Positions 5,172-20,285 of a stretch of 20,813 nucleotides of DNA are shown piece by piece (within the stretch, counting starts at the first letter, position 1; every line of letters starts with the position of its first letter). A program made the translations under genes and the position numbers. The notes under the pieces were generated by a model. The model made no database searches and was not told where the DNA came from. It saw only the letters and a list, made by a program, of their open reading frames with translations. Source of the stretch: Saccoglossus kowalevskii (Eukaryota > Hemichordata > Enteropneusta > Harrimaniidae); the NCBI RefSeq assembly GCF_000003605.2, contig NW_003151259.1, positions 172,189-193,001 on the forward strand, given 5' to 3'.

Positions 5172-8100
5172 GTTCGTATCAACACCTCCAATGACTTTAG
5201 CTGATTTCCCTCTAATCAAACGAGAGATTCATCGGGAAAACTGTGTCGACTAGTAAACTGCACAAAACCGACCACATTCAGCTGGTTCACTTTATTTTAG
5301 ATTGGTCTGAAACATGTTTTGCAGTGACAAATGTCGACCATTTATATTTAATTTAGATGTATTATGATTAGAATTCCATTGCAAAATTAAAATTTTTCGT
5401 TTATTCTCAAGTTACAAGAGAGAATTCACTTATAGTATTGTTGTATACGTATTCTGAACAATTATCATATTGGTGTGATCAATAGTTCACTTAGGCCAGA
5501 GTCAGAAAATCATTGGGGGGGGGGGGTCTACGACTGTATGCATGTCAAGGATTCACAGTCAATTCGTCCCAATTAACTTTCGTCCCAACACATTCGTCCC
5601 ACAAGTCGATTCGTCACAATTCATATTCGTCCCACGAGTCGATTCGTCCCAATTCACATTCGTCCCATTTCACATTCGTCCATTTTTTAAATTTTTAGTC
5701 AGCATTACGATCTTGAACAGGGTCAATTTCTATGCCAACTGTTACTGACACGCTAACTAATAACTCCACGTTGTGTGAACGGAGTATTTGTATTTATTAA
5801 CTAATAACTTGTACGTTGAATGTCCGGTGTATTTGTATTTATTAACTAATAACTCTACGTTGCACGTAAGGTGTATTTGTATTTATTGACTAATAACTTG
5901 TACGGTGTATTTGTATTTATTAACTAATATATTTGTATATAATGTTGGCAAAAAAAAAAAAGGCGCAACGAACAATTACGCATGCCAGTGCATGACGTGT
6001 ACGTGAACAGTTCGTTGTTTGGATGTGTTTGTGCTTATTTGGCGAGTTAGTAGTGGGCTAACCTTAAATCTGACGAATCGACTTTGGGACGAATCAACTT
6101 GTGGGACGAATCGACTTTGGGACGAATCGACTTGGGACGAATCAACTTGTGGGACGAATCGACTTGGGACGAATGTGATTTGGGACGAATCGACCGTCCC
6201 CCATGTCAAGTTACTGTGATATGGGTATGGTACGTTTTCTTTGGAGAATGTTCCAAGCGTCTAGTGGATAGTTTATGAGCTGTCGTATTATTATTTTCAA
6301 ATCATTTCTATCGTAACAACACTATGCAACAAGTAAAGTTGTAGTACATGTACCTGATGAGTGAGTGCAAATCCGGTGCGTGTCGGCTACCCCCGGTAAT
6401 ACCGGTATCATGGTTTTCCCTATAATTTTGATCAGAAGGCTCAATAATGGAAGTATTTGGTTGAATTGTATTCTTTTCAGCAGTATTCAAAAAGTAGGCA
6501 GCTAATAAGTCATTAGATGGCTAATTAATATGCAGTTGCCTTGTAAGGAAACCCCTGCATATGAATATGGGAAGTTGTGTAACCACTAGAACAAAAATTG
6601 TATTTAACACATGAAATTTAAACGAAAAACGTGATAAAGGGGTACTCCTTTGATCAAAACAAATCAGAAATTCTCAGATTTTGAATTTGTTCAGCTTATT
6701 TTATTCAGTGACAAGGCACAATGGGCATCTTTCGTGGACAGTAATATTTATGAAAATATTTGTTCACAATTTTATAAACTGGCTTGGAATTTCCACCACC
6801 AATTAGATAGTGTCACAGCATTTCGAATTTTATTTTAACGAATCCAAAATGCATTTTAGGTTTTGATAATTTTTATTTTTAATGGGTTAATATCATTAAT
6901 TTAATCCAGCGGTAAGATAGGATATTTATTAGAGAAGCTAGAGGGACCAAAATTTGCAATGTCACTGCGACAATAAATCAGTGATAGCCAAGGGGGTGAG
7001 GGACTGAATTTCAAAAACATATTAATATATAGGGTAGATAATTACTGAACTAAGGATATGCCACAATAAATGATGCTGCCTCTCTCATTGGCCAATAAGC
7101 ATGCTGCTTACTGTTTGTCACAATAAGATCTTTTCTGCTATTGGTCAAACTCCTGTTATTTTTTGTGAAAATACAGCATACATCTTATGTACTATGTTGA
7201 GTTAATTGCACGTCTGACATTGTTGTGCACAGTAAAATTATGATTGCTCCCTTCTCATTTTTGTCATCAACATGTATTTACTATTGATAGATTCAAACAA
7301 ACACAAACTAATTTGGAGAATGTGCGGCTCATAAATGACAAACACAAGGACATGAATTCACAAAAAAAAAAATATTATTCAGTTCAGTGACATGACATAT
7401 ATATTCTCTCACATAATTGTACACTGGATTAGCTCGCTCATGGTTGTGTTAATACTTCATAGTCCTGAAATATTACTACTATCTTCAGCAGAACTTTTAA
7501 ACTAACCATGTTAATCATTTAATTTGGCTGCTTTGTCTATACTGATTTTTTAATCTGATTAATCACAGACCCACCAGTGCTAAAGATGCAGCTGAGGCTC
7601 CTGCGGGAGAAGAGGAACCTAAGCAACCCACAGTGGAAGCCCAAAGTGGTGATGAACAGCCAGAAGGTGAAGCAGCTCCTGCAGAGGGTGCTGACGAAGA
7701 ACCAACAGAAGATGAGGTGCCAGCAGAGGTTGCTGATGATCAGCCTGCTCCAACTGAGGACACTGAAGATCAGCCAACCGGGGATGAGACTACATTGACT
7801 GAATCTGTGGACCAACCGGCTACTGATGAGACTCCTGCTGAAGTAGTAGAAGAACAACCAGCTGAAGAAGATGATACCACTGCCCCTGAACAACCACCAG
7901 GTATTTCCAACATTATTATATTTGATAGCTTTCACTGAATGAGATATGTAGATATTTAAAATGTATTGGAACTTGTAAATTAAATTGTCTGGTGTGTTTT
8001 TTATGACAGAAGGTGAAACAGAAGAAGCAAAACCACCATCTGGGCCTCCCAGCAGAGCATCTACTGCCAAGTCTGGTAAATCAGCCAGGTCAGCCAGATC

Positions 8101-11100: not shown

Positions 11101-14100
11101 CATAGTAGTTTGATTGGTATGAGAAGACGTGATGAAGCACATGCTGCTTTGATGGAGGCACTTCAGTAAGTCATTTACATTCACATTGTTTTCTCTGCAT
11201 TTGACATCGATCAACAAATAGGATAACCATGAACAAATTAACCCATCAAATAAATCTCCATTGATTCTTACAAAACTGTATGACCACATGATAAAGTAGA
11301 AATTGTATTGCAACCTGAGTCTGATTACAAACTAGATGTGCCTGTTGCTTTTAATACAAGCCCTTCAGTTGGCCTGGAAGCTAAATATTGCTCTGCTGAA
11401 TACAGTAACACAAGGTAGCTGCAGTATTAAAATATCGTCACAATTTTATGGATTGGGAGAGTGATAATTAGGTTTTCCAGGTCTTGATTTAGATGAGTGA
11501 TGACTCGCTTCAGAAAATAAAGTCTCTAATATATGACTTCTAGTGCATGTCTGTTGTGGTACTTACTCATCTAATTTGTCAATTCAATTGTATCTTGATA
11601 AAAAAAAGATTTTGTCACTTGAAGAAAGTGATCTAAAATATGAATTCTGATGTAATCAGAAGTGTGCACACTGCCAGCCATATATTTAAAATGACCGAGG
11701 CCTCTACAGCAGATTTCAATCCCAACTAGCATTATCAACAGGGGTTGAAAATTATACATCATGAAAAATATAATCAGGAATGTATTAGACAACAGTTAGT
11801 ATAAATTCATCTTATTATTACATCTCTTATATCTCATTTTTCCAATTCACTGTGTCATAACAAAATATCATAACCCTTGTGCATGTGTGAAAGGGAATAT
11901 AAAAACAGGTTCATACTTAAGTAAGCATTAACTTACCTAATATTTTATCATCTTTTCCAGTCAACAACAGCAGAATATACAATCTTATGCAACTGAAATA
12001 GACGGCTATAAAAAATCCATCCAGAAGGAACAGGAAAGTAATGAGACATTGACCCTTATTTTGAGGAAAAATGAAGCAGACATTGCTACGACAAAGAAGC
12101 TCATCCAACTGTGTCAGGACAAGCAAGATAAAATAAAACAAGAATATAGCACTTTCACTAGAATGCTGCATGAAACTGAGCAGTCATTGAATCGAGCATC
12201 AACGGTGAGTGTCTTTTATGATTAAATATGTAAACATAGCCTAATTGGTCATTTTGTGTTTCTACTACATTGTGTAACCATTACATTTTGTGTTTCTACT
12301 ACATTGTGTAATCTTTTCATTTTGTATTTCTACTACATTGTGTAATCATTACATTTTGTGTTTCTACTACATTGTGTAATCATTACATTTTGTGTTTCTA
12401 CTACATTGTGTAATCATTACATTTTGTGTTTCTACTACATTGTGTAATCATTACATTTTGTGTTTCTACTACATTGTGTAATCATTACATTTTGTGTTTC
12501 TACTACATTGTGTAATCATTACATTTTGTGTTTCTACTACATTGTGTAATCATTACATTTTGTGTTTCTACTACATTGTGTAATCATTACATTTTGTGTT
12601 TCTACTACATTGTGTAATCATTACATTTTGTGTTTCTACTACATTGTGTAATCATTACATTTTGTGTTTTAACTACATTGTGTAATCATTACATTTTGTG
12701 TTTCTACTACATTGTGTAATCATTACATTTTGTATTTCTACTACATTGTGTAATCATTACATTTTGTGTTTCTACTACATTGTGTAATCATTACATTTTG
12801 TGTTTCTACTACATTGTGTAATCATTACATTTTGTGTTTCTACTACATTGTGTAATCATTACATTTTGTGTTTCTACTACATTGTGTAATCATTACATTT
12901 TGTGTTTCTACTACATTGTGTAATCATTACATTTTGTGTTTCTACTACATTGTGTAATCATTACATTTGAATGCATACTGTTGATGATTTATAATGTTAA
13001 AAATGTAGTTTGTTAGATTCAGTCTTCTTTCGTAGTTCATTACTTTTCTGTACTTCTGTTTTAAATATATTTAAAGGGTGTTTGATAAGGTTGCATACTA
13101 CACACAGCAATATGCGTGTTGGTGTAATGCATTCTTCATTCTTTACCCACAATTCAAGTGTAACTGAATGTATCCAATGAGCACCACAATGTATGAAATA
13201 AAATGTGTGTGTATTCTGGTGTGATAACAATGTGTCCACTTTTTAAAGTCAATCATTCTCAAAATATACAATAACATTTTTTGAAGATAACATTTTTCCT
13301 TATTCTTTTTAAAAAATCAAAAAGCTAATGGAATACAATGTTATTTCGATCTAAAAGTAACAACAAATATTACCGGTATGTAGAAAATTAACAATACTGC
13401 AAAAAAATATTGGTGGGTTCAAAAAGTTAACACTGAGAGCAAGTTTGTGATTATGTTTCCAATAATGTATACGGTTTTAAAGCAGTAACCTTAATGGATG
13501 GTTCAATCTGCATTTTTATTCCTTTTACACTTACATTGTATATTTACTTCACCATTATTAGGACCGTACTCTTAGAATGAATGAATTAAATGCACTACGA
13601 AAACAAATTGAAAGAGAATATCAAGAGAAAGTTCGTTTGGAAGATACCATTCTGGAAAAAATGAGGGAGGAACTGACGATGGATAAAGCTGCTATATACA
13701 CCAAAAAGATGACTGATAAGTTGAGAGGAAGAACAAGGGATCAGGTATGAACATTTTTTTTAATGTTACATGTTAGATTTTATTTATTTTTACAGGATTT
13801 TTACTCTGTATTATTAGAAAATAAATAAATTGTGTAGAACTCTTCCAATTTCAGTACATCTGCAAATTACTTTTTTGGCAAAACTATTTAACTCATTTTT
13901 ATACTGCAATGCAAATAATGTTGCTTGGAACTTGTGTTCTGGTTGATGTGAAGCAGTGTAAATGTTCATTTTATTTTTACTTCATCTTGTAGGAATCATC
14001 TATGGCAACAGTCAAAAATGAGATTGCGAGAGATACCATGGAACTCTCACATACCATGACAAGAGTGGAGCGACTTAAAAAGGTTGCAAAAGAGCATGAT

Positions 14101-17100
14101 ATCGAAATTAGAGATAAGAATGATATTATTTCGAGAAGTGAAAATGAAATAGTTCGCCGTAATGCAATAATTGAACGTAAACAGGGACAAATTGATCAGT
14201 ACAATAAAAAGATAGAATCCATTGCTACTGCACAAGGGGTAAGTAATTCTTTTACATGTACTCGGAATTGCATGGCCATTTTGAGATATTTGGCTTACAA
14301 CTACATCTCATTGTACAGTACAGTGGTTTATCAGAAGCCATGGTAATAATTTTTTCCGCTTAAACTGAATTTACAACTTTATTTTGTCACTATAGGGAGA
14401 AGAACTTGGTCCACTGGAACATGAGATCAATGCACTTACAAAGAATATTGAACAACGCTCTCAAGAAATTGGGGAATTACAGCAGTTTTGGTTGCGGCAA
14501 CAGAATGAACTGGTCAAACTTAGCAAAGAGAAAGATAGCCAGGAGACAGAAGTAGGAACTATGAAGAAAGCATTAACTATCCTCCACCAGAAGAAATTGA
14601 GAATTGAAAGTAAGTTTAGTGTACTATATACCGGTATTACAGCAAGTATAACTACACATATATGACTAATGTGATTGGGGTGTGACTTCTCATACCAATC
14701 TATGTAGGTAATTGACTTTGTCTCTTTGTATTTTCAGATGAAATCAGCACCCACACTAATGAGGATGAGAACATTCATAGAAATATCAGTAATATGCAGA
14801 ATGACATGATCAAACTAAACACCTTGTTGACAAAGCAGGGCAAGATAAAAGAAGGTTTGGAACAAGGCAATGTACTGGTAGAGAGTGACTTTGTACAAAG
14901 TCTCAAGGTAAGTGACTTTACTGACATCATTATTTGCTACAATCATATTCCTTTGTGTTTCAAGATTTTACATGTTTTCCATTATTTATATGTGTTTAAC
15001 TATAATTTGGTTGTTCATCTTGTACATTTCCAGGAGGCGGAGTTGAACTCTATCCGTATGCAGAGAAATGTGGAAGAATTGACTGAAGAGAAGGAGAGAC
15101 TGCTAAACAGTCTTGTTGAAGCTGAGTAAGTAATTTTTGATAAATAATCATTTTTTGTAGCTGCAGCTTATAGACTTGTGAATTATTCAGTGTTTTTTAC
15201 CATGACGGTCTACTTGAGTCATAATGCATGCAACACCACCATATACTGCAAGTGCATTCATTATTCACTGGATTTTATTTTCGTTGATAGATAAAATCTG
15301 CTAAGTGAAAACCACAAAAACATGTAAAATAACATTAGTACTCATATATATATATAAGTACATCCGTGACAGATTAGCATTTACACCGTCGCTTGGTGTA
15401 TCACAAATGCAAGTTCCAGAGTCCATTGCATTTTACTATGGACACATGCAGAATGCTTAGTTGCAGTTTGATTTTATATGCGTGATGATTCTTTTCATCC
15501 TGAAATAATAATACTGATATCATTTTCTTTCCCTCTCAGACGACAGATCATGCTATGGGAGAAGAAAACACAGCTGGCCCGTGAAGCTAAGGCAGCGGTA
15601 GATTCTGAAGTAGGCCAGGGTGAGATTGGTGCCATGAGAGCTGAAATCCATCGTATGCAAGTGCGTTATGCACAACTGATGAAGCAGCAAGAGAAGATGA
15701 TACAAGATATGGAGAAGGCAGTCTCCAGACGTGACACCATTGTCACTAGAGGTGACGCACAGTCTAAAATGGACAAAAAAGTAGAAACTAAAGGAATGTT
15801 TCAGAAGAAGTTATCTGAAATGAAGAAAAAGGTGAAAAAAGTTCAACAAGTAAGTTATATACATTTAGTTTTTTTATTGTCAGTTTATAATCTGTGATTA
15901 TTTGCACAACTGTATTGATGTTACTTTAGAAGTAAATACATGAATGCAACAGCTCCGATATTCACAAGATATCCACGTCAAAAGTTTCCTGCCAATAGCA
16001 GAACATCACCAATCAGTTCCGTGGATCTTAAGGTTTTATTGAGTTAGTTTGATGTAAAGCATTCTGCATTTCTGGTGGGGCACATGCACATGGAACTGCA
16101 GTTTTCAAAGATAACTAAAATTTGCTACCTAAATTGCAAAACAGCTAACTGTCACCCATGCAAAGAAACATGGCCAACTGAAATGTTACAGCCGTTCTGA
16201 GAATTATTCGGACAGTCAGTTAGCAAAATGACTTGCAACTTTGCAAAACACTTTGGCCCAATCTAGACTTGTCGGCGCCACTTGATTGACAGGCGCGTGG
16301 TTTGGAATTACTATTTCTTAGGGGTTGTCAGCATGGTGAATTGAAAGTATTATCTAGCGTGCATATACAGAAACCATTCTTTATTTTTTTATATTTATAT
16401 TGTAATTATTGTCAATAATTTTAAAAATCGCTTGGGTGTTGCTTAAATTTGTCGAAAATTTCAACACCTCACTCATTTTAGTCAGTTGTACCTGTTATAA
16501 AAATGGACTAGACATAATAACTGTTGTCATACCCTCGTCATTTTCAAACTGCAGTTGAAAAAGTGATTTGCTCAAGGATGGCACCTTCGATTTGACAAAG
16601 TCCATCAAATCGTTATAATCAAGTTTTCCATCCATGTATCCCTGACGTACTCTCCCACCTCGGTATAAAATCTGAACTTGATACTTAATGCACAAGTAAT
16701 GTAAAAACAACTTTTAGTTTGGCTCAAAACTGTCGCGAAACTGCAGAAAGAAAGAAGAAACTTTACTTTGAGCCTTCCCGCCAACGACAAGTTCATTAAT
16801 ACCTGGGGTGGACTCAGATGGTTATACCAATTTAAAATAACACTTTGCCATCAAGTCTGTATTAGAAAGTGTTTTGCAAAGTTCCAAGATATATTGCTAA
16901 CTGACTGTCCGAATAATTCTCAGAACGGCTGTAATCCAAATTAGGTAGTATGGGTGTGTCATGTTTTTGTAAGAAATCATCCCACCCCTCACCTTGGGCT
17001 TGCCGAAAATATTGCTTTAAACTTATCAAATAAAAGTGAGAAAAAAATGTACAGAAATTTTATCTAAATCAACAGTAACTTTGAACATGAAGAAGAAATC

Positions 17101-18112
17101 CGAACAAAAATAATTTTCTTATTCACATGCAAGTACAAGTGGTATGCCTGATCTAGACTCTGTACAATGTGAAACATACAAACCAGATAGGGCTTCGTAC
17201 AACTGTATACAATTTAACTTTGTGATCTAAATTTGAACTTTTTGAACTTCACACCGAAGATACTAGTAATTAAATCCGCCAAAATGCTTGATTTTAACAA
17301 ATTATTCATCTTTTCACCGAACTATTTTTATTTGTTCACAGCAGCACATTAATTTACATGACCTGTATGATAAATTTTTTTCTTCATTTTAGGATGCAAG
17401 TTCTTGCGATTCAGATATTGCAGAGTTACGTGGCCATCAACAACAACTTAGTCAAACACTAGAAGAAAGGCAAATAAATTACCAACATCTACAGGGCCAG
17501 GCTGATACTTTAGACGGTGATATTGATAAACTCATGGAAATCAAAGGAAGGGTAAGTAGCAATTATTTAGCTTGAGCATTCTTTTAAAAATTTCCACCAG
17601 CAAATTCTCCTTTGTCTCACACCCAGCATGACTTATTGTTAGTTTGATGCATCACCTTGTTGGTTAGTAGCTATGTTGGAAAAAGTGTGGGTCACAGTTG
17701 TTCAACACTGAGGACGCTGTTCAAGTCGTGATTGGACATTCATTTTATCAAAAACTAAAATTATTATGGGTAAATAAAAGTGGTTACAATCCATCTTTGA
17801 TTTAACTACACGTCATCAGAGAATGTAAATGCATGTGTAACACTTCTTTTTATTCTCACTTCACAGAACATGGCTGATTTGATTGCAAGGCAACAGAAAG
17901 TAAAACACTACCAGGCACTAAAGGACGGCAAATACACATTACTGTGTAAAACTGACCAAGCATTGGACAATGAAATGGAAAAACAAGGAGACCGCATACA
18001 TACCATTACATCTATTGTAGATAGACTTAATCAAGAGTTTCCTCACATCCAACCAGCTTTGAGGAAAGTCTCTGTATCCCTCGCATCACGGGGTATCACT
18101 GATGAAGATTAA
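5152..18112 (+). CDS. CCDC40: Coiled-coil domain-containing protein 40 (CCDC40), complete, 17 exons
   Basis: Coding segments: 5152-5171, 7569-7900, 8010-8282, 8568-8737, 9185-9268, 10330-10549, 10675-10973, 11062-11165, 11961-12204, 13562-13744, 13993-14238, 14396-14609, 14738-14907, 15034-15125, 15540-15849, 17393-17551 and 17867-18112. All introns are GT..AG and all phases join, giving 1121 residues. Residues 1-258 are acidic and low-complexity. The family signature VVLDPDH ends at residue 265. From about 266 to 1105 the protein is almost continuous coiled coil, with landmarks such as DIGVNLYGLQQ, KQRQDLYVDRL, RRDEAHAALMEAL, IERKQGQID, VEAERQIMLWEKK and EIHRMQVRYAQLMKQQEKMI. Known role: with CCDC39 it forms the axonemal ruler that sets the 96-nm repeat and docks inner dynein arms and the nexin-dynein regulatory complex in motile cilia; human loss causes primary ciliary dyskinesia. 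The start was chosen because MADNEDR joins exon 2 in frame and sits in a good initiation context. Confidence 0.95.
5562..5681 (+). repeat. Left arm: eight ATTCGTCCC motifs
   Basis: Copies start at 5562, 5578, 5592, 5609, 5625, 5642, 5658 and 5674, so spacing is 14-17 bp. The 5609 copy ends TCAC instead of TCCC, and the last copy ends TCCA. Several copies are preceded by AGTCG. Confidence 0.85.
5755..5935 (+). repeat. 45-bp tandem repeat, about four copies
   Basis: Units begin AACTAATAACT and end GTATTTGTATTTATT, at 5755, 5799, 5844 and 5888. The last full unit is shortened by about 11 bp and a further partial unit follows. The middle part of each unit (CACGTTG to ACGG) is more variable than its ends. 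Confidence 0.85.
6071..6190 (-). repeat. Right arm: eight GGGACGAAT motifs
   Basis: Copies start at 6071 (TGACGAAT), 6086, 6103, 6119, 6134, 6151, 6166 and 6182. They are linked by TCGACTT or TCAACTTGT. The array mirrors the left arm in copy number and length (120 bp each). Confidence 0.85.
7569..7900 (+). CDS. CCDC40: CCDC40 exon 2
   Basis: It encodes residues 7-117, a strongly acidic stretch rich in Glu, Asp, Pro, Ala and Thr with degenerate repeats of the type DDQPAPTEDTEDQPTGDE. Vertebrate CCDC40 also has an acidic, poorly conserved N-terminus. Acceptor TAATCACAG, donor CCAG|GTATTT, ending in phase 1. Confidence 0.88.
8010..8282 (+). CDS. CCDC40: CCDC40 exon 3
   Basis: It encodes residues 118-208: a Pro-rich start, then Ser-Ala-Arg repeats (DNA repeat 8081-8125), then a Pro-rich linker and a second SQRSGGSG. 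The fragment is basic, in contrast to the acidic exons on either side. Acceptor TTATGACAG, donor GCAG|GTAAAT, phase 1. Confidence 0.85.
8081..8125 (+). repeat. In-frame 9-bp repeat encoding Ser-Ala-Arg
   Basis: There are five 9-bp units (TCAGCCAGG and variants; the last reads TCACAGAGA, Ser-Gln-Arg). The first two units are nearly identical at DNA level, suggesting recent slippage in a disordered region. Confidence 0.85.
8568..8737 (+). CDS. CCDC40: CCDC40 exon 4
   Basis: It encodes residues 209-265: an acidic run (DSDGDDFSDAEEGEDDD) followed by the family signature MVVLDPDH, which in vertebrate CCDC40 also marks the end of the disordered N-terminus. Acceptor TTTTTGTAG, donor CAT|GTAAGT, phase 0. 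Confidence 0.92.
8738..9184 (+). other. CCDC40 intron 4
   Basis: It is 447 bp, AT-rich, with donor GTAAGT and acceptor TTTCTAACAG. Nothing else was recognised. Confidence 0.8.
9185..9268 (+). CDS. CCDC40: CCDC40 exon 5
   Basis: Exactly 28 codons (PLMQRFQRALNSHLV and onward), the beginning of the coiled coil directly after VVLDPDH, matching the conserved order in the human protein. Donor CTG|GTAAGT, phase 0 at both ends. Confidence 0.92.
9269..10329 (+). other. CCDC40 intron 5
   Basis: It is 1061 bp with donor GTAAGT and acceptor TTCACTTTAG. It has short poly-A tracts and no recognised element or gene. Confidence 0.75.
10330..10549 (+). CDS. CCDC40: CCDC40 exon 6
   Basis: It encodes residues 294-366, with the conserved DIGVNLYGLQQELARQQ followed by charged heptads. 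Acceptor CACTTTAG, donor GACAG|GTGAGG, phase 1. Confidence 0.92.
10675..10973 (+). CDS. CCDC40: CCDC40 exon 7
   Basis: It encodes residues 367-466, including TEVENLATRLFYL, then KQRQDLYVDRLTEIVDKLKE and AMYEAQHSAQTEETKAAKEA. It closely follows the human order (ENLALHLFYM, KKQDLYVDQL, FEAQYLAQAEDT). Acceptor CTCCACAG, donor GAG|GTAGGT, phase 0. Confidence 0.94.
11062..11165 (+). CDS. CCDC40: CCDC40 exon 8
   Basis: It encodes residues 467-500: LLQQWHSSLIGMRRRDEAHA, then ALMEAL, a highly conserved block of the family. Acceptor ATGTTGCAG, donor CTTCA|GTAAGT, phase 2. Confidence 0.94.
11166..11960 (+). other. CCDC40 intron 8
   Basis: It is 795 bp and AT-rich, with acceptor TCTTTTCCAG. No gene or repeat was recognised. 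Confidence 0.75.
11961..12204 (+). CDS. CCDC40: CCDC40 exon 9
   Basis: It encodes residues 501-582, with EIDGYKKSIQKEQESNE and a run of coiled-coil heptads ending NRAST. Acceptor TTTTCCAG, donor ACG|GTGAGT, phase 0. Confidence 0.92.
12205..13561 (+). other. CCDC40 intron 9
   Basis: It is 1357 bp; over half is the 34-bp minisatellite at 12251-12968. The remainder (12969-13561) is AT-rich with one TACCGGTA at 13371 and no gene. Acceptor CATTATTAG. Confidence 0.8.
12251..12968 (+). repeat. 34-bp minisatellite, about 21 copies
   Basis: The unit is TACATTTTGTGTTTCTAC followed by TACATTGTGTAATCAT. Most internal copies are identical. Deviations are seen in the first copy (GTAACCATT), the second (ATCTTTTCATTTTGTA), one near 12668 (TTTAAC for TTCTAC) and one near 12733 (GTATTTC). 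The unit contains the near-palindrome TGTAATCATTACA. There are no unique spacers, so this is a minisatellite and not a CRISPR array. Confidence 0.97.
13562..13744 (+). CDS. CCDC40: CCDC40 exon 10
   Basis: 61 codons (residues 583-643), starting DRTLRMNELNALRKQIERE and ending LRGRTRDQ. It is highly charged coiled coil. Acceptor ATTATTAG, donor CAG|GTATGA, phase 0. Confidence 0.92.
13993..14238 (+). CDS. CCDC40: CCDC40 exon 11
   Basis: 82 codons (residues 644-725), with the conserved NEIVRRNAIIERKQGQIDQY (human: SEISRRTILIERKQGLI). Acceptor ATCTTGTAG, donor GGG|GTAAGT. Confidence 0.94.
14396..14609 (+). CDS. CCDC40: CCDC40 exon 12
   Basis: It encodes residues 726-796. It opens with the strongly conserved GEELGPLEHEI and ends HQKKLRIE. 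Acceptor CACTATAG, donor GAAA|GTAAGT, phase 1. Confidence 0.94.
14738..14907 (+). CDS. CCDC40: CCDC40 exon 13
   Basis: It encodes residues 797-853, including NDMIKLNTLLTKQGKIKEGL and ESDFVQSLK, both close to vertebrate CCDC40. Acceptor ATTTTCAG, donor AAG|GTAAGT, phase 0. Confidence 0.94.
15034..15125 (+). CDS. CCDC40: CCDC40 exon 14
   Basis: It encodes residues 854-883, EAELNSIRMQRNVEELTEEK and then LLNSLVEAE, the last codon split with exon 15. Acceptor ATTTCCAG, donor GCTGA|GTAAGT, phase 2. Confidence 0.93.
15126..15539 (+). other. CCDC40 intron 14
   Basis: It is 414 bp with a short (TA)n run near 15345. Nothing else was recognised. Acceptor CCCTCTCAG. Confidence 0.8.
15540..15849 (+). 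CDS. CCDC40: CCDC40 exon 15
   Basis: It encodes residues 884-987, the best conserved part of the protein: RQIMLWEKKTQLAREAKAAV, DSEVGQGEIGAMRAEIHRMQ and LMKQQEKMIQDMEKAVSRRD. Acceptor CCTCTCAG, donor CAA|GTAAGT, phase 0. Confidence 0.95.
16189..16254 (+). repeat. Left terminal inverted repeat
   Basis: It begins CAGCCGTTCTGAGAATTATT and ends TTTGCAAAACACTTT. It matches the reverse complement of 16866-16931 at 62 of 66 positions. Confidence 0.9.
16533..16796 (-). pseudogene. PB1-domain gene fragment inside the TIR element
   Basis: On the minus strand 16683-16533 reads YQVQILYRGGRVRQGYMDGK, then LDYNDLMDFVKSKVPSLSK, then LFQLQFENDEG. This resembles a PB1 domain, a ubiquitin-like protein-interaction fold: a first strand with a YRGG turn, a central LMDFVKSKV helix, and an acidic FENDEG loop at the place of the OPCA motif, as in atypical PKC. 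The frame is closed by a stop just upstream, but an in-frame start exon is possible: ATG at 16796 encoding MNLSLAGRLK, donor AAA|GTAAAG at 16767, acceptor TTAAG before 16683. The fragment ends at a donor-like GAGG|GTATGA at 16533. The domain call is by eye and the donor gene is unknown. It could also be expressed from its own promoter. Confidence 0.55.
16866..16931 (-). repeat. Right terminal inverted repeat
   Basis: Read on the minus strand from 16931 it begins CAGCCGTTCTGAGAATTATT. The outer 38 bases are identical to the left repeat; mismatches are confined to the inner part. Confidence 0.9.
17393..17551 (+). CDS. CCDC40: CCDC40 exon 16
   Basis: 53 codons (residues 988-1040), DASSCDSDIAELRGHQQQLS and onward to DGDIDKLMEIKGR. 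It is less conserved coiled coil, aligned to the human region rich in LEETQ and LEKQEKL. Acceptor CATTTTAG, donor AGG|GTAAGT. Confidence 0.92.
17552..17866 (+). other. CCDC40 intron 16
   Basis: It is 315 bp with acceptor CACTTCACAG. Nothing else was recognised. Confidence 0.8.
17867..18112 (+). CDS. CCDC40: CCDC40 exon 17 (terminal coding)
   Basis: It encodes residues 1041-1121 and the TAA stop. NMADLIARQQKVKHYQALKD, then GKYTLL, and later IVDRLNQEFPHIQPALRKVS match the conserved CCDC40 C-terminus (human: [20 protein letters not shown]). Confidence 0.95.
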   Translation, partial: NMADLIARQQKVKHYQALKDGKYTLLCKTDQALDNEMEKQGDRIHTITSIVDRLNQEFPHIQPALRKVSVSLASRGITDED

Positions 18113-18773: not shown

Positions 18774-20285
18774 CTGCAATAAACAACGGGACAAATATTA
18801 GAGAGGTGTGTCTGTGAATCAGATGTATACATACAGATCCTAGGATGCAGATCGCTACGGTGATCCAAATGACAAATTGTTCAAAAGTTAATTACGACTC
18901 CAACATCCTATTTTTCTTTGGTTGCCATGACTGCTGACCATGGTTGGCAATGTATTGATCTCACCGACATTGTAAATTGACTTTACCACTTAGCCAATCT
19001 GAGGTTGAACAGAAAATGACAAATTACTTTTGCACATAACTGCCCAAAAAAATCATTCTAACTTAAGACCAAAGCAATGGAGCTGCCTCTGATCATGCAT
19101 GGTTACTTTTTAACCAGGATTTGAGTCGTATTTGCTGTGAGAACATATCACCATTTTGGCTTTTCAACTTGTAAATTTCACAGCAAAGTATATTTAAACA
19201 ATAAAGAAGATTACCGGTAGGCAAACAAGGTTATGCTCCTAGATGAATTGCTCCAACAAATGCATAAGAAAGCAGTTATGAATGAATTTAAATTCCCATG
19301 CATATGCCATGACAGAGTAAGTAGGAAAGAAGAAAAAAAAGAGCTCACTGGAACTGATAAATACTAAATAAACAAATTGGAAAGTGTACTTGCCCACTCT
19401 GAGTAGGGTTAAATCATTCTTCAGTATGTGGTCACCTAGCAACAGAATTTGGTCTGGATTGGTTATTTTCCTATAATTCACATAGAATCCACCTTCTTGG
19501 ATGATTCTCTCACCTTGAACTGAAAAATAACATAAATGATTGTTACTTGTGTGAATTATCGTCAATATTAACAAACAGACATAACAAAGGCAAAGGTAGG
19601 AATGGTACTTTCATAATTTTGTGCAAAAACATTTAAATAAAGTTACTAGAATTCATTTTTTGAATTGACATTCAAAAGACTTTTCGGCTGTTTTGTCTGG
19701 AAATTATTTTTATTGATTTATGACGAGTTGAATGTAAAATATAGGAACAAACTATAAGGGATATTTGCTGGATTTTATTTTCACGGAATCATCACTTCAG
19801 CGAAAATAAATTATTTTACAGTATTCTAGTATGAAATATATGTAGATGAAAAATGTTACTTGTGAAAAGTATACACGTATGAAATAATTTTTTCATAAAA
19901 CTAATGAGTTGACTATCTCACCTCCTGTAGAAGGTAGACTGTTGACTTTTTTACCCAGATCTAACATGGTTATCCCAGGTTCTAATGTCAATGTTGTGGA
20001 TGGTGCATTTTTAAACAGTTCTTTCAACTCTTTCTCTGATAATTTCTCTAGTGTTTCAGGACTTCCACTGTACAGTGCATTGGTGAATCTTACAGCAGTG
20101 TTTAAACCTTCATCTGTTAACAAATAATCTGAGGAACTACTTTGAAGCACAAAGAATTTAATAAATAACTCCAATCAAAAAAATAGTTGTCTTGAAGAAA
20201 ATTGATAAAAATGAATACCTCCATGTACAAGCAATGTCACCTGTTCTGCTAGCTTTCTTTGCGCTGTTCTATTGTCTGGTTTGTT
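18736..20285 (-). CDS. YARS2: Mitochondrial tyrosyl-tRNA synthetase (YARS2), 3' part, four exons
   Basis: Coding segments in transcription order: 20285-20219, 20113-19922, 19519-19394, 18773-18736. They join in phase into 140 residues plus stop. The enzyme attaches tyrosine to mitochondrial tRNA-Tyr in the matrix. The class I catalytic core (HIGH and KMSKS) lies upstream, outside the window. Visible parts are the linker RTAQRKLAEQVTLLVHG, the helical stretch TLEKLSEKELKELFKNAPST, and the C-terminal S4-like RNA-binding domain: IIQEGGFYVNYRKITNPDQI, LGDHILKNDLTLLRVGKKNY and HIVKWVY. These follow the conserved human order (QELKELFKEAP, QHILKNGLSLL, GKRNFYIIKW). The mitochondrial rather than cytosolic enzyme is indicated by the S4 tail; cytosolic YARS1 has an EMAP-II-like tail. 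The gene is cut by the right window edge. Confidence 0.92.
18774..19393 (-). other. YARS2 last intron, GC-AG class
   Basis: It is 620 bp with donor GTGG|GCAAGT and acceptor TTGCAG. No GT donor in the right phase is seen. The intron contains one TACCGGTA (19212) and no gene. Confidence 0.85.
19394..19519 (-). CDS. YARS2: YARS2 penultimate exon (S4 domain)
   Basis: It encodes VQGERIIQEGGFYVNYRKIT and then NPDQILLLGDHILKNDLTLL, ending RVG with a split Gly codon: the S4-like RNA-binding domain that contacts tRNA. Acceptor TTTTTCAG, ending at the GC donor. Confidence 0.92.
19520..19921 (-). other. YARS2 intron
   Basis: It is 402 bp with donor GTGAGA and acceptor TTTTTCAG, AT-rich. Nothing else was recognised. 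Confidence 0.8.
19922..20113 (-). CDS. YARS2: YARS2 exon (linker helices)
   Basis: It encodes DEGLNTAVRFTNALYSGSPE, then TLEKLSEKELKELFKNAPST and LEPGITMLDLGKKVNSLPST. The conserved KELKELFKNAP anchors the assignment. The acceptor is TTAACAG, chosen because VHG-DEGL then aligns with human VHG-REGL without a gap; an upstream CTCAG would add seven residues. Donor GGAG|GTGAGA. Confidence 0.9.
20219..20285 (-). CDS. YARS2: YARS2 exon (RKLAEQVTLLVHG)
   Basis: 22 codons plus one base: NKPDNRTAQRKLAEQVTLLV, then HG. This corresponds to the conserved AQKRLAAEVTKLVHG of the human enzyme. Acceptor GTTTTCAG, donor GGAG|GTATTC, phase 1. Confidence 0.88.

Follow-up and report, generated by a model that had tools for sequence, protein, structure and literature searches.

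A MITE-like TIR family of Saccoglossus kowalevskii with a probable PB1-like coding relic

The TIR element in the CCDC40 intron of the window (the whole stretch of 20,813 nucleotides of Saccoglossus kowalevskii DNA analyzed here) is very probably an older, internally deleted copy of a multicopy, non-autonomous, MITE-like TIR family that carries a PB1-like relic as a passenger. The first-pass annotation had read the same element as a captured fragment of a PB1 gene, with a start exon, a donor, and an acceptor, perhaps expressed as an isolated decoy-like domain.

According to the present explanation, a founder element would have contained a PB1-like frame from its ATG (MYQIQILYRGG...) through about codon 63, and a transposase from an unseen relative, recognizing the TIRs, would have moved the elements in trans. 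The PB1 segment of the founder would then have been amplified as a passenger, decaying neutrally. The copy in the CCDC40 intron would most likely only occupy intron sequence, in antisense orientation, and, judged from its sequence, it is most likely without function.

Structure of the Element and Its Host Intron

The features of the element and of the flanking exons are collected in Table 1. The TIRs are 66 bp long, and the outer 38 bp of the two arms are identical; with the flanking bases included, the arms (16186–16254 and 16866–16934) extend over 69 nt and are 94% complementary. The comparison of the arms thus bears out the initial description of the repeats, of the CAGCC..GGCTG ends, and of the flanking TA. 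When the whole window was scanned for inverted pairs of at least 25 nt, 12 were listed, namely the TIR pair, nine pairs within a separate tandem-repeat foldback at 5.6–6.2 kb, and two weak ones (25 nt, 76–80%). Set against these, the TIR pair is beyond chance.

Table 1. Features of the TIR element and its surroundings in the CCDC40 intron (positions in the window)
Feature	Position	Strand or location	Basis or remark
CCDC40 exon (part), upstream of the host intron	15600..15849	+	followed by GTAAGT; joined-peptide match
Left TA of the target-site duplication (TTAA target)	16187..16188		sequence; family left ends; empty site
TIR element	16189..16931	within CCDC40 intron	ends CAGCC...GGCTG
Left TIR	16189..16254	+	inverted-pair scan; both arm sequences compared
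Probable PB1-like coding relic, 63 codons, truncated before the domain end	16498..16686	-	Pfam, copy comparison; stop at 16495–16497
Family start codon ATG, AAG in the window copy; splice acceptor of the first-pass annotation	16684..16686	-	50-copy comparison
Junction of 45-bp deletion relative to the family majority	16806..16807		alignment of copies
Junction of 128-bp deletion relative to the family majority	16846..16847		alignment of copies
Right TIR	16866..16931	-	inverted-pair scan; both arm sequences compared
Right TA of the target-site duplication	16932..16933		sequence; family right ends
CCDC40 exon, downstream of the host intron	17393..17551	+	joined-peptide match

The host gene is CCDC40. 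The peptide joined from the two exons that flank the intron is colinear with CCDC40 chains in the PDB (best match 9fqr, query 2–154, E = 2.5e-39), which confirms the location originally given for the element. The PB1-like frame is antisense to CCDC40. Pfam searches with three element frames of the window copy gave no family besides PB1 and no transposase, so that the reported absence of a transposase holds for the frames examined. The frames of the family majority sequence, read by eye, include no long frame and none that resembles a transposase, while NCBIfam for two window frames and Rfam at gathering scores for the window listed nothing.

Other parts of the window contain features of their own. 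At 5555–6197, a GACGAATCGACTT-type unit forms arrays that are inverted relative to each other (about 5562–5681 and 6072–6194), one 30-nt pair being 97% complementary; the region resembles a foldback-type element whose arms are tandem repeats. A 34-bp unit is repeated head to tail in 21 copies at 12250–12968 (98% matches). A reverse-transcriptase frame (PF00078, E = 3.6e-17) occupies 1–681 on the minus strand and is cut by the window edge. At 19239–19610, also on the minus strand, an S4-domain match just below the cut-off (E = 1.6e-4), accompanied by weak tyrosyl-tRNA synthetase C-terminal matches, probably marks a neighboring gene.

Copies of the Family

The Saccoglossus kowalevskii assembly (572 Mb, 4830 contigs) was searched with 831 bases of the element. 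The best 40 of the 186 candidates were scored and all of them matched: the window copy and 39 others at 79–91%, with the interior included. Dispersed copies of the kind that the first-pass annotation had suggested looking for therefore exist; their interior, however, is common to the family and was thus not acquired by the window copy itself, which speaks against a fresh capture in this intron.

Ends were placed by script, and 29 of the 40 fetched places proved to be two-ended. Four of these exceed 960 bp and were left out, and the remaining 25 were aligned. The aligned copies measure 617–937 bp, 19 of them falling at 853–937 bp, with a majority sequence of 935 bp to which they are 91–97% identical; compared pairwise, they are on average 91% identical. 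For the window copy, the identity to the majority is 93%, and two blocks of 45 and 128 bp are missing in addition to smaller gaps. It is hence an ordinary, internally deleted derivative and not a unique capture.

The four longer copies (L014, L033, L036, and L044) were considered as autonomous forms and rejected. Their extra stretches of 729–961 bp do not match one another, two of them have inverted ends of their own, and the only listed frame of at least 70 codons has 76; for these reasons they resemble nested insertions. The family copies L033 (273–1001) and L044 (1809–2708) each enclose an element of another kind, bounded by inverted ends of its own.

A genome search with the TIR only, in which the best 40 of 210 candidates were scored, gave 40 matches at 96–100% identity. 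Places already fetched account for 27 of them, and four of the other 13 lie beside PB1 peptide matches. Five of the remaining nine places (L089–L093) were read. Two of them, L091 and L093, are deletion forms that lack PB1; PB1 is wholly or mostly gone from L090 and L092, which contain other sequence, and L089 is mostly N. The PB1-less copies (L090–L093) look like deletion forms that may have lost PB1 after insertion, so that they do not demonstrate a pre-capture form.

Target Site and Transposition

Among the ends placed by script, TTA is found at 35 of 36 left ends and TAA at 39 of 40 right ends. One copy (L043) is inserted in another repeat, of which the uninterrupted version is present in L033, with one TA where L043 has two. 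This clean empty site, together with the flank pattern, shows that the family inserts at TTAA with duplication of the TA. Another copy, L009, is situated in a tandem array. Up to TTA, its left flank agrees with the other units; its right flank is not cleanly alignable at the junction.

The family displays the features by which MITE-like elements are recognized, i.e., TIRs at both ends, a target-site duplication with an empty site, short length, and many similar copies. The Tc1/mariner-type superfamily has TA duplications and CAG ends, and placing the present family there would rest on this general likeness. Since no transposase was found, we make no superfamily assignment. No autonomous partner was found among the best 40 of the 210 TIR candidates, with five of the nine new TIR places read, one of them mostly N; within this scope, it is a point against the explanation given at the outset.

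Neutral Decay of the Frame

The comparison of copies indicates that the PB1 part decays neutrally within the family, as a passenger. The sample consists of 50 copies (the 40 fetched places and 10 others, partial copies included) over a 150-bp frame. The 149 distinct substitutions are spread over the three codon positions as 50/51/48, and 39 of the 149 (0.26) are synonymous, compared to 0.21–0.28 expected without selection for transition weights of 1 to 4. The 25 aligned copies diverge from the majority by 3.3–3.6% in the TIRs, by 4.8–4.9% in the interior outside the PB1 part, and by 5.7% in the PB1 part itself, where two poorly aligned copies (L043 and L037) raise the value.

The integrity of the frame, assessed by script over the first 50 codons, points in the same direction: the frame is broken in 30 of the 50 copies (17 with the ATG and 13 without it) and unbroken in 15 copies with the ATG and five without. 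One 34-bp deletion that removes the ATG is common to nine of the 50 copies, which means that a frame-broken lineage has multiplied. The majority sequence shifts frame after FEND, and a subfamily that includes the window copy continues to MTTVIMSSPFL. In the genome search with the PB1 peptide, six of the 80 matches span the query to residue 53 or 54 without a stop. Some of the 15 copies with an intact frame could, from their sequences, still make a short peptide.

Relatives Outside the Family and Coding Ancestry

The protein search of the genome with the PB1 peptide gave 80 matches, all 79 candidates being scored. Every match below 62% identity was traced, and unfetched matches of at least 62% were taken as family copies without reading. 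Four diverged loci emerged, C3288 (50%), C4457 (47%), C1343 (36%), and C3473 (33%), all values being amino acid identities. The last three have a stop within the PB1 stretch. In C3288 the matched stretch is open for 139 codons, and a one-base frameshift just upstream, which could be an assembly error, puts it out of frame with its own start. This start reads ATG TAC CAA ATC CAG, compared to ATG TAT CAA ATT CAG in the family.

Over 36 codons, the family and C3288 differ at 9/4/17 sites by codon position, with pS = 0.70 and pN = 0.16, which correspond to dS ~2.0 and dN ~0.19; these are small counts, taken from two segments around the one-base frameshift in a stretch chosen by eye. The excess of dS over dN indicates that the family frame and C3288 descend from a protein under purifying selection, and the PB1-like fragment is thus probably a genuine coding relic.

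The four loci themselves look, from their sequences, like relics of repeated sequences. C3288 and C4457 are alike also in their flanks (73–74%, beside 76% in the PB1 part), and C1343 and C3473 have ~840 bp in common at 83%. No family TIR was found around C3288 (129000–147000 of the contig, with an N gap inside). In the 2.6–3.0 kb read at each of the other three, the only TIR match is a weak one of 31 bp to the inner TIR sequence (25/31, E = 0.002), which lies in C4457 ~130 bp ahead of the PB1 part and in the orientation opposite to that expected on that side. Gene-like frames lie beside the C3288 relative (L081 7146–7508, L080 562–948 and 1024–1305), one of them with a weak SAM match below the cut-off (E = 0.0066); they may be pieces of an unrecognized repeat-encoded gene.

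Origin of the PB1 Segment

Two origins of the PB1 segment were considered, each compatible with the MITE-like family described above. In the first, a Pack-type capture to which we give an even chance, gap filling or template switching would have brought the first coding exon of a host PB1 gene into a founder TIR element, and the chimera would then have multiplied. The coding ancestry deduced from C3288 is consistent with this origin, as are the ATG at the start of the segment and the fact that the segment stops short of the end of the PB1 profile, both as in an exon fragment. PB1 and a transposase did not occur together in any TIR copy seen, and Pack-TIRs are known in animals, as described in the portion of PMC8277862 drawn on here. 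Against it stands the lack of an intact parental gene: besides family copies, the 79 candidates of the protein search yielded just the four diverged loci, all with a stop or frameshift relative to the family. The only foreign interior that could be searched, that of L092, was considered as a captured gene and rejected, being another dispersed repeat with more than 40 matches. It should be noted that a scan of the genome with the PF00564 profile gave only six matches, so the searches are insensitive and a parental gene may be missed. A seemingly suitable candidate, C3766, was discarded as well, its "1273-aa open frame" being a run of N.

The initial reading as a captured PB1-gene fragment hence survives only in part. 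A capture by the founder is possible; for the window copy, the neutral, family-wide passenger and the missing intact parental gene argue otherwise. The first-pass annotation had itself named two outcomes that would count against it, namely an interior common to all copies with no host gene that matches it, or no PB1 similarity in an HMM search. The interior is indeed common and the insensitive protein search gave no intact host gene, while the PB1 similarity stands weakly.

In the second origin, the PB1 segment would be what remains of a transposon gene: a PB1-containing protein would have been encoded by the autonomous ancestor or by a related transposon, from which internal deletion gave rise to the short elements. 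We regard this as a real possibility that falls somewhat short of probable. The four PB1 relatives that do not belong to the family agree with this origin, since they carry stops or a frameshift and form the repeat groups C3288/C4457 and C1343/C3473, and the weak 31-bp inner-TIR match near C4457 hints at a connection to the family. However, this match is wrongly oriented and has no counterpart in the stretches read near the four relatives. No transposase was seen together with PB1 in any TIR copy. Moreover, the open 139 codons of C3288, if its frameshift is an assembly error, speak against a mere relic. A further-reaching proposal, that an undescribed autonomous DNA transposon of animals encoded a PB1 domain and had the PB1-like frame as its accessory gene, with relics in the short TIR elements and in the C3288/C4457 and C1343/C3473 repeats, seems to us rather unlikely. 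PB1 is an oligomerization module, and if the source were a transposon gene, this domain would join those carried by animal DNA transposons.

Identity of the PB1-like Part

On the sequence evidence, the fragment is probably PB1-like. The minus frame 16495–16713 matches Pfam PB1 (PF00564) over positions 3–54 of the 84 in the profile with E = 3.1e-4; its 21.1 bits lie below the curated cut-off of 23.6, so the domain assignment made at the outset stands as a similarity rather than as a formal match. In the genome scan with the PF00564 profile, the best match is C3354 (25.5 bits) and the window copy comes second of the six (19.3 bits, E = 0.475).

The single-sequence model of the 63 residues (mean pLDDT 87) has strands at 2–8 and 12–18, a helix at 24–34, and strands at 42–49 and 52–59, an order that we take to fit the first part of PB1, as the fragment is truncated. 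The model is not decisive as proof of PB1, the topology being suitable and the Foldseek comparison lacking a significant match. Taken together, the sub-threshold Pfam score, the fitting order of strands and helix, and the absence of a Foldseek match make the PB1-like identity probable and not proven.

A resemblance to PB1 by chance, or another ubiquitin-like fold, was weighed as well. The Pfam score below the cut-off and the modest E value of the genome-wide scan would agree with it, and so would the PDB searches: the fragment had no sequence match at E up to 10, and Foldseek of the model gave nothing at E <= 0.001 and named no PB1 in the first 50 of 673 rows. In addition, the majority 50-residue version reaches only 13.1 bits, and the PB1 pieces of C3288 matched no Pfam family. 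Nevertheless, E = 3.1e-4 was obtained over all of Pfam with no other family listed, PB1 is the sole family matched by seven of nine aligned copies, and the window copy ranks second in the profile scan, all of which make a chance or alternative fold improbable.

Start Codon and Splice Model

The start codon of the window copy is dead. At the position of its AAG (16685), 32 of the 50 copies have ATG, one has ACG, 16 have a gap, and the window copy alone has AAG; its frame runs for 72 codons from stop to stop without the family ATG. The splice model of the first-pass annotation placed an acceptor at this AAG and a donor at 16767, where a GT is indeed present. The family frame begins inside the proposed second exon, which makes an upstream start exon unnecessary, and the proposed acceptor is the mutated family start codon, so that neither the start exon nor a spliced decoy is supported. 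An isolated, decoy-like PB1 domain expressed from the CCDC40 intron is in our view scarcely credible: the 72 open codons and the strand-strand-helix-strand-strand order of the well-scored 63-residue model speak for it, whereas the lost start codon, the neutral evolution of the frame in the family, and the truncation of the domain speak against it. The picture of this locus is thereby corrected, the "splice acceptor" being a dead start codon and the fragment, very probably, a passenger.

Comparison with Known Systems

MITEs, i.e., short non-autonomous TIR elements, occur in many copies and have TIRs and a TA duplication. The present family resembles them in all of these respects, in the absence of any transposase seen, and in its presumed mobilization in trans. 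It differs in the recognizable protein-coding relic of its interior and in the TTAA context around the TA. A probable coding-domain fragment has here been amplified by a TIR transposon in an animal genome to at least 40 copies, and the family can serve to examine by what route elements acquire such fragments and whether the host makes use of any copy. A literature search found no description of PB1 in animal TIR elements, which is not proof of absence.

Animal Pack-TIRs, of which the portion of PMC8277862 drawn on here reports 370 in 100 genomes, share with the family the TIRs around coding sequence, which in the present family may be of non-transposon source, and the occurrence of intronic copies. 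Multicopy cases are described there as rare (Ssk-FB4 and four others), unlike the at least 40 copies found here. The main Pack-TIR set of the same source required an unambiguous parental copy outside the TIR element, a requirement relaxed in a further human count. Here no unambiguous parental copy was found; the relatives reach only 33–50% amino acid identity and carry stops or a frameshift, in searches of limited sensitivity. If capture were shown, the family would be a multicopy Pack-TIR case.

Plant Pack-TYPE elements, as presented in the part of PMC8903248 used here, are likewise non-autonomous and carry coding DNA. The present family differs from them in its animal host and in that capture is only a candidate reading. 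The plant MUSTANG (MUGB) genes, in which the cited sections of PMC3435246 describe a PB1 exon on a transposon-derived gene, provide a further parallel, by analogy only, for a PB1 domain joined to transposon-derived sequence. According to the same sections, they belong to the plant host, derive from MULEs, and are under purifying selection, in contrast to the PB1-like relic of the present family, which appears to decay as a passenger.
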